DNA of 64,000 bases from Pseudomonadota bacterium (lineage in GTDB: Bacteria > Pseudomonadota > Gammaproteobacteria > Nitrosococcales > Methylophagaceae): positions 1 to 64,000 of the forward strand of contig JALIBN010000012.1 of NCBI GenBank assembly GCA_030576275.1, in the 5' to 3' direction. A program made the translations under genes and the position numbers. Position 1 is the first letter of the stretch. Every line of letters starts with the position of its first letter. Positions 23,018 to 36,686 of the stretch are shown here, piece after piece. Below the pieces are notes generated by a model. It was not told where the DNA came from, made no database searches, and worked only from the letters and a program-made list of their open reading frames with translations.

Positions 23018-23092
23018 TGGCTGGGGTACCAGGATTCGAACCTGGGAATGCAAGGATCAAAACCTTGTGCCTTACCGCTTGGCGATACCCCA
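23018..23092 (-). tRNA. tRNA-Gln (anticodon TTG)
   Basis: The minus strand folds into a full cloverleaf of 75 bases including encoded CCA. The acceptor stem is TGGGGTA / TACCCCA, the anticodon loop is TTTTGAT with anticodon TTG, and the T-arm loop is TTCGAAT. It lies between ispE and prs, the usual gammaproteobacterial location of a tRNA-Gln. Confidence 0.97.
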
Positions 23093-32706: not shown

Positions 32707-33966
32707 TTAAACAAATAAGCCTGCACTGTAACCGGAGGACCATGCCCATTGAAAATTATAGCCGCCTAGATGACCAGTGACATCAAGCACTTCGCCGATA
32801 AAATAAAGCCCTGCTTGTTGCTTGACCTCCATCGTTTTCGAACTAATGCCGTCAGTATCAACGCCGCCCAAAGTGACTTCTGCCGTACGATAACCTTCAG
32901 TCGCCGAGGGTTTTACTATCCAATTATTAATATGCTCACCAATCGTTATTAATTGTTTATCGTTGAATTCGGCCAATGCTAGGTTTGAAGATCCAGCCCA
33001 CCACAAAGTTTGTAATTCATTAACTAGAGTCTTAGACAATTTATGACCTAAAATGGTTTTTAACAAACTTTTGCCATGTTGCTGTTTCACTTCAAGTAAC
33101 CATTTTGCCGCATCAAGATAAGGCATTAAATTGATCGCCACCTCATCGCCCGGCGACCAGTAATTAGAGATTTGTAAAATAACTGGGCCACTGATTCCAC
33201 GATGGGTAAATAACATGTTTTCACTAAATTCTCGACCATTACAGCTCACGACAACTTCTAAAGCTAGTCCGGCTAAGCGCTCACAGACAAGCTTCATAGC
33301 ATCGCTAAACATAAAGGGAACTAAGCCTGCTTGTCGCTCAGTGAGGGCTAAAGAAAATTGCTTGGCAATGTCGTAACCAATTCCACTTCCGCCCAAAGAA
33401 GGAATCGACAGCGCGCCCGTTGCCACCACCAGCGACTGACATTCGATACTAAGTTTACTACTGGCCTGCGTAAAATTTAGACGATAACGATTGTGCTTAT
33501 GTTGAGTTTGATTTTTATTTGAATCTGACGAGTCATTAGTCGCTAATGATTTGATCGTGTTGATTTCACAATCCGTTTTAATCTCGACACCAGCTGACTC
33601 GCATTCCTCCAACAACATAGCCAAAATTTCTTTCGCCGAATTTTTACAGAATAACTGACTGTGTAGGCGCTCTTCATACTCGATGCCATAGCGTTCAACC
33701 ATGGCGATAAAATCCCACTGACTATAGCGTTTTAATGCCGCTTTACAAAAATGCGGGTTAGCTGAAATAAAATTATCCGCTTCAACAAAATGGTTGGTGA
33801 AATTACAGCGGCCACCACCTGACATTAAAATTTTCTTGCCTATCTTATTGGCTTTTTCCAGCACCAATACCCGTCGCCCACGTTGCGCAGCGGTAAACGC
33901 GCAAAGTAATCCCGATGCACCGGCACCTAAGATAATGACATCGTAATTCTTTGAAGATGATTTCAC
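32707..33966 (-). CDS. HI0933/YhiN-family FAD oxidoreductase
   Basis: A 419-residue flavoprotein of the HI0933-like family. The FAD motif VIILGAGASGLLCAFTAAQRG is followed by KKILMSGGGRCNFTN, a hallmark of this group; LVVATGALSIPSLGGSG, and the C-terminal VTLGGVDTDGISSKTME and LYFIGEVLDVTGHLGGYNFQWAWSSG complete it. The family has been named aminoacetone oxidase in some annotations, but the true reaction is unclear. Full length. Confidence 0.88.
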   Translation of the reverse strand: MKSSSKNYDVIILGAGASGLLCAFTAAQRGRRVLVLEKANKIGKKILMSGGGRCNFTNHFVEADNFISANPHFCKAALKRYSQWDFIAMVERYGIEYEERLHSQLFCKNSAKEILAMLLEECESAGVEIKTDCEINTIKSLATNDSSDSNKNQTQHKHNRYRLNFTQASSKLSIECQSLVVATGALSIPSLGGSGIGYDIAKQFSLALTERQAGLVPFMFSDAMKLVCERLAGLALEVVVSCNGREFSENMLFTHRGISGPVILQISNYWSPGDEVAINLMPYLDAAKWLLEVKQQHGKSLLKTILGHKLSKTLVNELQTLWWAGSSNLALAEFNDKQLITIGEHINNWIVKPSATEGYRTAEVTLGGVDTDGISSKTMEVKQQAGLYFIGEVLDVTGHLGGYNFQWAWSSGYSAGLFV

Positions 33967-34406
33967 TGAGACTTTATCCGAACATTATGAATATCACCGC
34001 GCCAAGCTGCTTAGCGAATATCACTTTATAATTGGTAAATCCTAAGGCTCAAACATTCGCCTCCCCAGACTTGGTGGGGCTTTATGGCTTCGTTAGATTG
34101 TATTACTCTTTAACGGATGGTTATGCCTAGGGTCGAGCTAAGGATCCCATCATTATGAGTGATGTTTCATTTAGTCTGATTCAGAATGGCGCCGGACTAA
34201 ACGTCCATGTATTCAATAATATACAGGTTACTGAATGAGATTTAAAGCTAGAAAGACTATGCTGAGTCACATATTATCCATGCTCAGAGTATAAAAACAT
34301 TCGACTCTTTTATGTAATTACTAGAGACTTCAGGACTCAACAATATCTTGCTTGAGTTGCGTCTACCTCTATTGTAGTAATCGATAAAATTTAGTTGGAA
34401 CAGAAT
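33967..34406. other. Intergenic region (about 440 bases) with a decayed tRNA-Met half
   Basis: No convincing coding frame. A short stem (CCCCA / TGGGG, 34072-34088, 7-base loop) lies in the left part and could weakly stop transcription. The main content is the degenerate tRNA-Met fragment at 34118-34165. The rest, up to the DUF815 gene start, shows nothing else that I can identify. Confidence 0.6.
34118..34165 (-). repeat. Degenerate copy of the 3' half of tRNA-Met
   Basis: These 48 bases align without gaps to 35470-35517 within tRNA-Met, 41 of 48 identical, in the same orientation. The last 20 bases, covering the anticodon arm, are identical; similarity stops at the 5' side of the anticodon stem. 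Arms no longer pair properly (mismatches in the T-arm and no matching acceptor 5' strand), so it is not a working tRNA. Together with the intact tRNA it forms a direct repeat 1352 bases apart, enclosing the DUF815 gene. Confidence 0.8.
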
Positions 34407-35339
34407 ATGAATGATAAATTATCCAAGAGTTGCGACTCTGGATTGATTCAAGCGATGGATCGTCTCTCAAAAACACTTGATAGCTTTTTACCTGATGACC
34501 AAAGGCAAACCCAATCATTATTACCAGATGCCCTTGCTTATCGCTGGCAATATAGTCAAGGGATGTTTATACGGGGGGCTTTAGTACCCGTATTGTCACC
34601 TCAACTCATTTCATTCTCCAATCTCAGAAATATCGATAAGCAGATTGATCAATTGTATAACAATACACGTCAGTTTGTTAACGGTTTCCCAGAAAATAAT
34701 GTACTAATGACGGGCGCTAGAGGAACCGGTAAGTCTTCATTAGTACGAGCGTGTCTCGAGGCATTTCACAACCAAGGGCTACGCCTTATTGAAGTTGAAA
34801 AAGAGCACCTCAATGATCTCCCCGATATTCTTAACCTGATTAGAAATAACAAAGAGAAATATTTGATATTTTGTGATGATCTTTCCTTTGAAGAAGGCGA
34901 GAATAGCTATAAAGGCTTAAAAACCGTTCTGGATGGTTCTATTGTCGGCTCACTAGAAAATGTACTCGTTTATGCCACATCAAATAGAAGGCACATGATC
35001 ACTGAGCGTATGAGTGACAACTTTGAACACAGAAATGATAATCAAGGTGAAATACATCCAGGTGATGCCGTAGAAGAAAAAATCTCTCTCTCGGATCGTT
35101 TTGGTCTACAGCTTACGTTCTACAGCTTTAATCAAGATCAATATCTAGATGCAGTCAGCCATTGGCTAAACAGTTTTGGTATTAAGCTTTGTGATGATGA
35201 GAAGATTCGTTTTGAAGCCATCCAGTGGGCGACAGGACGAGGAACTCGTTCTGGTCGTATAGCTTGGCAGTTTGCAAGAGATTATGCAGGAAGAAAAATG
35301 ATGGTTGATGCGGATGAGCTAAATTCAGACGTCAGATAA
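34407..35339 (+). CDS. DUF815-family AAA-type ATPase
   Basis: A 310-residue P-loop protein. Walker A is MTGARGTGKSSLVRA (Gly-Lys-Ser near residues 106-112), Walker B is YLIFCDDLSF, sensor-1-like is VLVYATSNRRH, and arginine-rich GRGTRSGRIAWQFARDY lies near the end. This is the DUF815 pattern, related to the DnaC/Cdc48-like AAA+ ATPases; function unknown. Start ATG at 34407 was chosen (GGAA seven bases before it) over TTG at 34395. It lies alone between the tRNA-Met fragment and the intact tRNA-Met. Confidence 0.88.
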   Translation: MNDKLSKSCDSGLIQAMDRLSKTLDSFLPDDQRQTQSLLPDALAYRWQYSQGMFIRGALVPVLSPQLISFSNLRNIDKQIDQLYNNTRQFVNGFPENNVLMTGARGTGKSSLVRACLEAFHNQGLRLIEVEKEHLNDLPDILNLIRNNKEKYLIFCDDLSFEEGENSYKGLKTVLDGSIVGSLENVLVYATSNRRHMITERMSDNFEHRNDNQGEIHPGDAVEEKISLSDRFGLQLTFYSFNQDQYLDAVSHWLNSFGIKLCDDEKIRFEAIQWATGRGTRSGRIAWQFARDYAGRKMMVDADELNSDVR

Positions 35340-35466
35340 ACGTTCTAAACTTGTCAGGCGTCATTAGACAAGATGATGAACAGGAAGTTAATTTCTAAAT
35401 TGATGTTGTGATACAACTACAAGAGGATTGTAGAGTTTAAACCCTTACCCATTGCGGGTAAATTAG

Positions 35467-35543
35467 TGGTGGCTATACCTAGATTCGAACTAGGGACCCC
35501 ATCATTATGAGTGATGTGCTCTAACCAACTGAGCTATATAGCC
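35467..35543 (-). tRNA. tRNA-Met (anticodon CAT)
   Basis: A complete 77-base cloverleaf on the minus strand including encoded CCA. Acceptor stem GGCTATA / TATAGCC, D-arm AGCTCAGTTGGTTAGAGC, anticodon loop CTCATAA with CAT, T-loop TTCGAAT. The close match to E. coli metT in D- and anticodon arms points to elongator methionine tRNA rather than a tRNA-Ile2, though the lysidine type cannot be fully excluded. Confidence 0.95.
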
Positions 35544-35603
35544 ATACTAAGTAGGGCATTTTACGATGCCATAAATAAAACATCAAGAAATTACTTAATT
35601 TAT

Positions 35604-36629
35604 TTACAACCAATCCGTTAATTGGACACCAAAACCGATACTATTCGAGTAGGCGTCGTAATCAATAAGGCTTTCACCATAGCCATTAAACCATTGAACA
35701 TAGCCCCTTACGTTGTTTGATAAAGGGAAACTCCAGTTTAATTGAAACGCACCATGATTATCGCTCGTACTTAAGTTATCTCTAATCATGAAATCAAAGT
35801 TTTGGTTTCCTCTTTTATATAAACCAATAAACTCAAAGTTACCTAAATAATCATCGATATCTGGATTATTGTCATCTTCCAATTTTTCAGGAATTCGCCA
35901 CCATGGTTTTGCAGAAAAAAACCAGTTGCCTTTTTCAAAGATAAAATCGGCATACACCCTATTCCAGCTTCGCGATAAAGTACCTGCTTGACCATTTGAT
36001 TGGTGGACTATCCCAGTACGGACAACAGAGTTATGGAAGCCAAAAATAGTCGTGTCATTTCTAAATGATAACCACATTTCTGGCTCGTGGTTCGACTCCC
36101 GAAAAGGTGAAGAGCCCGCTTTATTAAATTGTTGCCAGAAAGATCGGTTGGTATAAGCCGCGTAAAGGTCACCCTGACCATTAAATAAACCACGTGCTAG
36201 TGGCACTTTCAGACTAAGTTGAAATTTGGTTTCCCATGGTTGAAAATGCACGTTCTTATCGGGAAACGCTTCTTTGAAGGGCGCCTCGTGTGGTGATGCC
36301 AGATTATTACTGATGATAATATAATTAGGCTTGTGTGGATGTAATGAAAATGGATTGTTGTTCTCTGATTCAAATGATAATCGACGGGCTAATGCCGATT
36401 CAACAGTGACCATGCCATCTTCATCCGGCAAGGCAATTTCCGCCGTATTGGCATCACTAGAACGTTTAATTCTTAACTTATCACAACGTGATTTTAATTC
36501 TCCAATCGTGACCGTATCTGCTGACATCGCCAGCTGCTCTTGCAGACATTGGTCAATATTTGTTGCTATAGCAAACTGCATGGAAAAGATCCCCCAGCAA
36601 CCGGCCAACAAACTCATCATAAGTTTCAT
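35604..36629 (-). CDS. pldA: Outer-membrane phospholipase A1 (PldA/OMPLA)
   Basis: Calcium-dependent outer-membrane phospholipase, a beta barrel active as a dimer when phospholipids reach the outer leaflet. The catalytic HQSNG box (His209, Ser211) and the third catalytic residue Asn223 in SRSWNRVY are present. A signal peptide (LMMSLLAGCWGIFSMQFAIA) and an N-terminal extension of about 100 residues precede the barrel; this extension is longer than in E. coli PldA. The ATG at 36629 was chosen because it gives MKL plus a proper signal peptide. Sequence ends in LTDWL. Confidence 0.93.
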   Translation of the reverse strand: MKLMMSLLAGCWGIFSMQFAIATNIDQCLQEQLAMSADTVTIGELKSRCDKLRIKRSSDANTAEIALPDEDGMVTVESALARRLSFESENNNPFSLHPHKPNYIIISNNLASPHEAPFKEAFPDKNVHFQPWETKFQLSLKVPLARGLFNGQGDLYAAYTNRSFWQQFNKAGSSPFRESNHEPEMWLSFRNDTTIFGFHNSVVRTGIVHQSNGQAGTLSRSWNRVYADFIFEKGNWFFSAKPWWRIPEKLEDDNNPDIDDYLGNFEFIGLYKRGNQNFDFMIRDNLSTSDNHGAFQLNWSFPLSNNVRGYVQWFNGYGESLIDYDAYSNSIGFGVQLTDWL

Positions 36630-36686
36630 TTCAATTTCATCCAAAAATCAGTTAGTTATCAACCATACTTTTATCACTATTATTCC

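Follow-up and report, generated by a model that had tools for sequence, protein, structure and literature searches.

Results

The stretch of DNA that we analysed, hereafter the window, comprises 64,000 nucleotides and is contained in an assembly of 2.37 Mb in 34 contigs, here designated G000. At the locus of interest (Table 1) a single protein-coding gene lies between an intact tRNA-Met gene and a partial copy of that gene's 3' part, the whole being bordered by genes for an HI0933-like flavoprotein and a phospholipase A1 (PLA1). The comparisons that follow refer to the 29 genomes G000–G028 of group g1, which we call the genus, to a sister genus (g3), and to a related family (f2).

Table 1. Features of the tRNA-Met locus, in window coordinates
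Feature	Position	Strand	Remarks
Left flanking gene, HI0933-like flavoprotein	32707..33966	-	In G006, adjoins the empty tRNA-Met
Native trailer of tRNA-Met, its terminator hairpin decayed	34026..34117	-	Apparently stranded beside the half-copy
tRNA-Met 3' part (positions 27-74), decaying and apparently displaced	34118..34165	-	Far insert end, attR-like
Insert DNA from half-copy to DUF815 (left spacer, 229 bp)	34166..34394	.	
DUF815 (PF05673) AAA-type ATPase gene	34395..35339	+	ATG at 34407; only recognisable cargo
Insert DNA from DUF815 to tRNA (127 bp)	35340..35466	.	Includes the tRNA's new trailer; short hairpins; fold z -1.40
Intact elongator tRNA-Met (CAT), CCA encoded	35467..35543	-	Putatively regenerated target gene, attL-like insert end
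Right flanking gene, phospholipase A1 (PLA1)	35604..36644	-	On the tRNA-Met 5' side

ARAGORN and Rfam place the tRNA gene on the minus strand, at 35467/35470-35543, and because its sequence is unlike that of the initiator-type tRNA-Met of five other genomes it is the elongator tRNA-Met. A repeat search confirmed the partial copy that the initial annotation had described: positions 34118-34165 are identical to 35470-35517 at 41 of 48 bases (85%), ungapped, in the same orientation, and at a spacing of 1352. Of all ungapped 48-base comparisons with the tRNA over the 5 kb that follow it on the 3' side, this was also the best, the maximum being 28 in 300 dinucleotide-preserving shuffles of those 5 kb. 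The half-copy spans position 27, on the 5' side of the anticodon stem in the ARAGORN numbering, to position 74, thus extending, as had been noted, from the acceptor end to the anticodon stem; it reaches the gene end, where the native trailer follows. Upstream of it no similarity to tRNA positions 1-26 was found, only 6 of 26 bases agreeing without gaps and 89% of 2000 letter shuffles scoring equal or higher in a gapped alignment, and the tRNA and ORF searches returned neither a tRNA gene nor an ORF of at least 80 aa at the half-copy. The 20 bases 34146-34165, which had been singled out as exact, are indeed identical in G000, but that exactness carries no special meaning, since 3 of the 20 differ in the sister genome G001. 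Adjoining the half-copy is an inverted repeat, TTTAGTC/GACTAAA (34170-34176 with 34195-34201), which we set aside as a meaningful candidate upon finding that its predicted fold differs in G001 (-12.0 versus -10.2 kcal/mol in G000); the left spacer that holds it has 11 gap columns against G001.

Between the two tRNA copies the sole ORF of at least 80 aa encodes the DUF815 protein (Pfam E 2.9e-98; 328.4 bits versus a cut-off of 23.8), and the original statement that these 1.3 kb hold only a DUF815 ATPase was therefore correct. In its translation we recognised by eye a P-loop-like GARGTGKSS and an acidic IFCDDL, which we take to be ATPase motifs; to our knowledge, DUF815 is a widespread ATPase family without a described function, and a comparison with solved structures gave no match. 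Among the ORFs of at least 80 aa and the Pfam matches no integrase was found in the insert, nor did the integrase of G007 (see below), used as a query, detect a relic there, the short frames of the spacers having been read by eye only; relics of other genes were likewise not recognised by eye. The left spacer had a convincing match only in G001 (E 4e-87) among the 29 genus genomes, the next other genome being at E 0.05, and had no match in phage records, while in plasmid records the whole insert region matched only two entries, both partially (29% of the query, about 66%). The GC content of the insert (0.387), slightly below that of the window (0.420), is no clear sign of a foreign origin.

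In the surroundings of the locus, a tRNA-Gln gene lies at window 23018-23092, that is, 12 kb on the 3' side of tRNA-Met; in the relatives, tRNA-Gln is found about 3.5-5 kb on the 5' side in 27 of 31 loci, a difference in place that may point to a rearrangement.

The uninterrupted site was found in G006, in whose contig C5 (locus L054) both flanks of the window meet in one intact tRNA-Met. The left flank there corresponds to window 32708-34165 (79% over 1460) and the right flank to window 35469-36644 (81% over 1195), with the two matches overlapping by 49 bases in the tRNA; and because the flanks join in this single gene, 1,352 bases are extra inside the tRNA gene of the window. In G001 (L053) the same filled structure occurs with a spacing of 1360 and with its own diverged half-copy, the contig stopping 51 bases 5' of the tRNA, so that the right flank is visible there over those 51 bases only. 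The presence of the insert in two separate assemblies, G000 and G001, argues against an assembly chimera. Adjacency of the HI0933-like gene and tRNA-Met on one contig was seen only in G000, G001, and G006, that relationship not being readable in G002, G008, G017, G021, and G023, whose contigs end near tRNA-Met.

The distribution of the fragment was surveyed with a tRNA pattern of 23 bases (positions 27-49, at most 3 mismatches), which matched in 26 of the 29 genus genomes and, reversed as a control, in 0. The tRNA plus the fragment was present only in G000 and G001; G021 has two full genes, the other 23 genomes gave one match each, and G009, G015, and G026 had no match to this pattern. We also scanned the 3' side of 31 tRNA-Met loci—from 25 further genus genomes, with G021 contributing two loci, and from five genomes of the same family—and found a half-copy only in G001, the available 3' side being 0 to 10 kb and less than 1 kb in G002, G008, G017, G021a, and G023. 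The right flank with PLA1 was alignable over at least about 800 bp in 15 of these 31 loci, and the 3' side varies. The gene for DUF815 was found in 3 of the 29 genus genomes, namely G000, G001, and, at another locus, G006. The alignment across relatives that had been proposed at the outset, along with the question of whether the ATPase and the half-copy come and go together, gave this answer: the insert, DUF815, and the half-copy occur together in two genomes, and neither DUF815 nor the fragment was seen at the site in the other readable genomes of the genus. A larger or integrase-bearing form of the insert was not found among the 29 genus genomes. With respect to G021, its two intact elongator tRNA-Met genes (L061 on C39, L062 on C22) share ~160 bp at 89%, including part of the leader, one of them being at the PLA1 site and the other elsewhere beside BatA/BatB-like ORFs, labels that were assigned by eye.

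An alignment of G000, G001, and G006 indicated which of the two 3' halves belongs to the original gene. Behind the half-copy stands a sequence that resembles the trailer of the intact G006 tRNA, terminator hairpin included, and the intact tRNA of G000 and G001 has the native leader but a different trailer. Window 34026-34165, which comprises trailer and half-copy, matches the tRNA-Met plus trailer of G006 at 72% (E 1.3e-12), and 34063-34165 matches the intact tRNA and trailer of G028 at 72.6% over 106 positions; in G028 the native trailer stands next to an intact tRNA-Met, with other genes behind it. The predicted fold of the native trailer has a z of -3.12 in G006 and of -0.06 in G000, the latter being no better than shuffles, and the new trailer of the intact tRNA lies between the two. 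In its 3' half the intact tRNA does not differ from the tRNA of G006. Since the native trailer is on the half-copy and the native leader, with another trailer, is on the intact tRNA, the half-copy is the displaced native 3' half of a split ancestral gene; and the insert supplied a new 3' half and trailer, with the leader and the 5' half staying together. Such an arrangement is the outcome described for integration into tRNA genes in PMC4383910.

Between G000 and G001, with gap columns excluded, the half-copy agrees at 43 of 48 positions, the intergenic flank at 134 of 150, the tRNA at 77 of 77, the HI0933-like gene at 1169 of 1254, and DUF815 at 854 of 945. The half-copy drifts at about the intergenic rate, as its 5 differences in 48 compare with 16 in 150 in the flank. 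In turn, DUF815 evolves under purifying selection (dN 0.045, dS 0.362, ratio 0.125 between the same two genomes), the dS against G006 being saturated at 2.26 and left out of this estimate.

Regarding the relatives of DUF815, the family is nearly universal in the sister genus, where 23 of 24 genomes carry it at E <1e-80, and the 22 g3 proteins compared were 42-45% identical to that of the window. In the DUF815 tree, which has several long branches and in which the placement of G047 with the carriers may be spurious, the three carriers of the genus group with proteins of other families and of a Burkholderiaceae genome, apart from g3; a horizontal acquisition of DUF815 thus seems likely. Within that tree G006 pairs with G000 first and only then with G001 (88/76, not starred), the opposite of what the HI0933-like protein indicates, in which G000 and G001 are 94% identical versus 85% with G006, and are thus the closer kin. 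The ancestor of the trio may have had a DUF815 that later moved, or DUF815 may have come twice.

In the G006 copy, on contig C32, only the gene and not the spacers matches the window; at L055 9520-10440 it has, by eye, an outer-membrane CopB-like gene on one side and on the other a small ORF, after which comes a MarC-like gene. No tRNA was found there in 20 kb and no long direct repeats around the gene in 8 kb, and the two genes to its right sit together in G000 (C12:131916-132841), away from DUF815. Nor was a tRNA found near DUF815 in 22 g3 loci (about 3.7 kb each), in 7 further loci, or in L073-L075 and L081-L084 (18-19 kb each). Five f2 genomes (G036, G037, G038, G040, and G041; L076-L080) do have DUF815 near a tRNA-Met, which we considered as an ancestral arrangement and rejected; that tRNA is of the initiator type, with another sequence, and because the tRNA is different we treat the likeness as a coincidence. 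In G037 this tRNA is beside rimP, nusA, and infB, and the far side of DUF815 is occupied by dapD and dapE (all by eye), neighbours that may hint at the function of DUF815. Viral contigs yielded no relative of DUF815 in a search reaching close relatives only, and phage records contained the family in 8 records, all at <60% identity. A DUF815 gene is placed beside ISAba1 and oxa23 in an Acinetobacter prophage in a passage of PMC8942029 that assigns it no function, so that the family is seen, at least there, as a passenger elsewhere.

The same tRNA gene is accompanied by integrases in several relatives. In G007 (L065) a complete integrase ORF begins 115 bp beyond tRNA-Met, with a RadC-like gene next to it; the integrase domains are Arm-DNA-bind_3, Phage_int_M, and Phage_integrase, an architecture that we presume to be P4-like. 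The integrase in G023 (L060) is as in G007, at the same distance of 115 bp from tRNA-Met, and is truncated where the contig ends. Remnants of this integrase at tRNA-Met were found in G017 (L070; frame-shifted, the contig ending soon after), in G013 (L071; E 5e-5 over 22 residues), and in a genome of the sister genus, G035 (L051; with an in-frame stop). The G007 element has no DNA similarity to the insert, about 24 kb did not reveal its far end, and stretches of 17-25 kb in G007, G020, G027, G013, and G021 held no distal tRNA fragment beyond the tRNA itself. A search of G000 for a relative of the G007 integrase gave no match, an outcome that for this kind of search says nothing about absence; G000 does have 7 matches to PF00589. 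The elongator tRNA-Met is accordingly a used integration site; yet because these elements are unlike the insert and no displaced fragment was found with them, the integrases of the relatives speak for use of the site and not for the enzyme that acted in the window. As for the integrase or larger cargo in other strains that had been suggested initially, integrases and their remnants occur at the same tRNA, but none in a larger form of the insert.

Discussion

From these comparisons we consider a site-specific integration of a DNA element into the tRNA-Met gene to be very probable, and the locus in the window to be most likely the scar of such a tRNA-targeted integration, with the integrase gone. 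In the ancestor of G000 and G001 an element would have integrated into the elongator tRNA-Met, between the anticodon arm and the 3' end, bringing with it its own tRNA 3' half and a new trailer, so that the tRNA would have stayed functional; the native 3' half, trailer, and terminator would have been pushed to the far end, where they would have been decaying ever since. The DNA would have been acquired horizontally, and the integrase—presumably a tyrosine integrase—together with other cargo would have been lost later, leaving the present insert of 1,352 bp with one gene under selection, the DUF815 ATPase. Loss of a larger cargo is less certain than the integration event itself, and we infer it as the most economical explanation, given that an integrase is normally part of elements that integrate into tRNA genes. 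The earlier proposal of a former island that lost most of its content is consequently upheld in what concerns the integration, through the empty site in G006 and the native trailer on the half-copy, but no larger version was found, and the loss of content would be a deduction from the general pattern.

The other proposal of the initial annotation, that the half-copy remains from a tandem duplicate of tRNA-Met that decayed, with DUF815 between the copies by chance, finds a precedent in the whole-gene duplication that G021 presents within the genus; nevertheless, the half-copy lacks a 5' half, the native trailer goes with the copy and the native leader with the intact gene, as would correspond to one split gene, and the single gene of G006 has both leader and trailer, so that we hold this origin to be highly improbable. 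Recombination that was not site-specific—homologous or illegitimate, through a fragment ending in a tRNA-Met gene that brought DUF815 along—would be compatible with the identity between the 3' half of the intact tRNA and that of G006, which makes a donor close to the lineage possible, and with the lack of an integrase; the limitation of the repeat to the 3' part of the tRNA, with an edge at the anticodon stem that is the usual footprint of an integrase (an anticodon-centred class of tRNA-gene integrases being described in PMC4383910), makes such an event improbable. Similarly improbable, in our opinion, is that DUF815 and the repeat were ancestral and that G006 lost both through recombination between the repeats. 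A deletion of that kind would produce the G006 site, nearly all g3 genomes have DUF815, and the gene may predate the split of G000 and G001 according to the branching order of its tree; against this, the DUF815 proteins of the carriers do not group with g3, the DUF815 of G006 is located elsewhere, in G028 the native trailer belongs to an intact tRNA-Met with other genes behind it, and the adjacency of the HI0933-like gene and tRNA-Met is confined to G000, G001, and G006, with five genomes blurred by contig ends.

A further alternative concerns the size of the element alone: the insert may never have been larger, being a non-autonomous cassette of 1.35 kb (att, DUF815, att) moved by an integrase from elsewhere. 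This possibility, which shares the integration step with the preferred explanation, so that the odds of the two overlap, is suggested by the same small content in both carriers, by the short spacers of G000 (229 and 127 bp), and by the failure to recognise relics of other genes either by eye or with the G007 integrase. We judge it unlikely, as no second unit was found, only G000 and G001 have the left spacer among the genus genomes, the plasmid records gave just the two partial matches, and the viral contigs, within the reach of that search, had no relative of DUF815; moreover, tyrosine-integrase islands usually carry their integrase. Its stricter form, a minimal mobile cassette with DUF815 between tRNA-Met att sites, its integrase encoded elsewhere, and its retention due to usefulness to the host, is improbable.

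Among known systems, the closest to the integration scar that we favour are the islands detected by Islander, which, according to PMC4383910, likewise have a regenerated tRNA at one end and, in like orientation, a displaced 3' fragment at the opposite end. The fragment in the window lies downstream of the tRNA and starts at the anticodon arm, which fits the anticodon-centred class of that source, and the window has in addition an empty site in a relative. The differences are that it has no integrase and that its length of 1,352 bp is below the Islander range of 2-200 kb, so that Islander would reject it. Because both aspects were examined, and neither an integrase nor sufficient length was found, we do not file the insert as an intact island. 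Closer in phylogeny, the integrase element of G007 and G023 shares with the insert the target gene and its side, but in G007 it differs in its intact integrase, in the absence of DNA similarity, and in a far end and crossover class that were not found. The remnants of G017, G013, and G035 are, like the window, decayed traces of an integration that struck the same tRNA; part of the integrase survives in them, and no displaced tRNA fragment was seen in the DNA covered (only 569 bp in G017), which is the reverse of the window.

None of the papers retrieved on genomic islands and tRNA genes in Methylophaga was, from its title and opening lines, evidently on this locus, and a search in general terms for island scars found none; the trace of integration is real but fairly ordinary, the scars of tRNA-targeted integrations being already known. 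What the locus offers is a clean case of integration into a tRNA gene in which a single gene under selection is left, and for which the unoccupied site and another carrier are available for comparison, along with relatives that represent other stages at the same tRNA, with an intact or a broken integrase. Such an insert, which shows DUF815 kept under selection as a lone gene, would escape programs that demand an integrase or a minimum of 2 kb.
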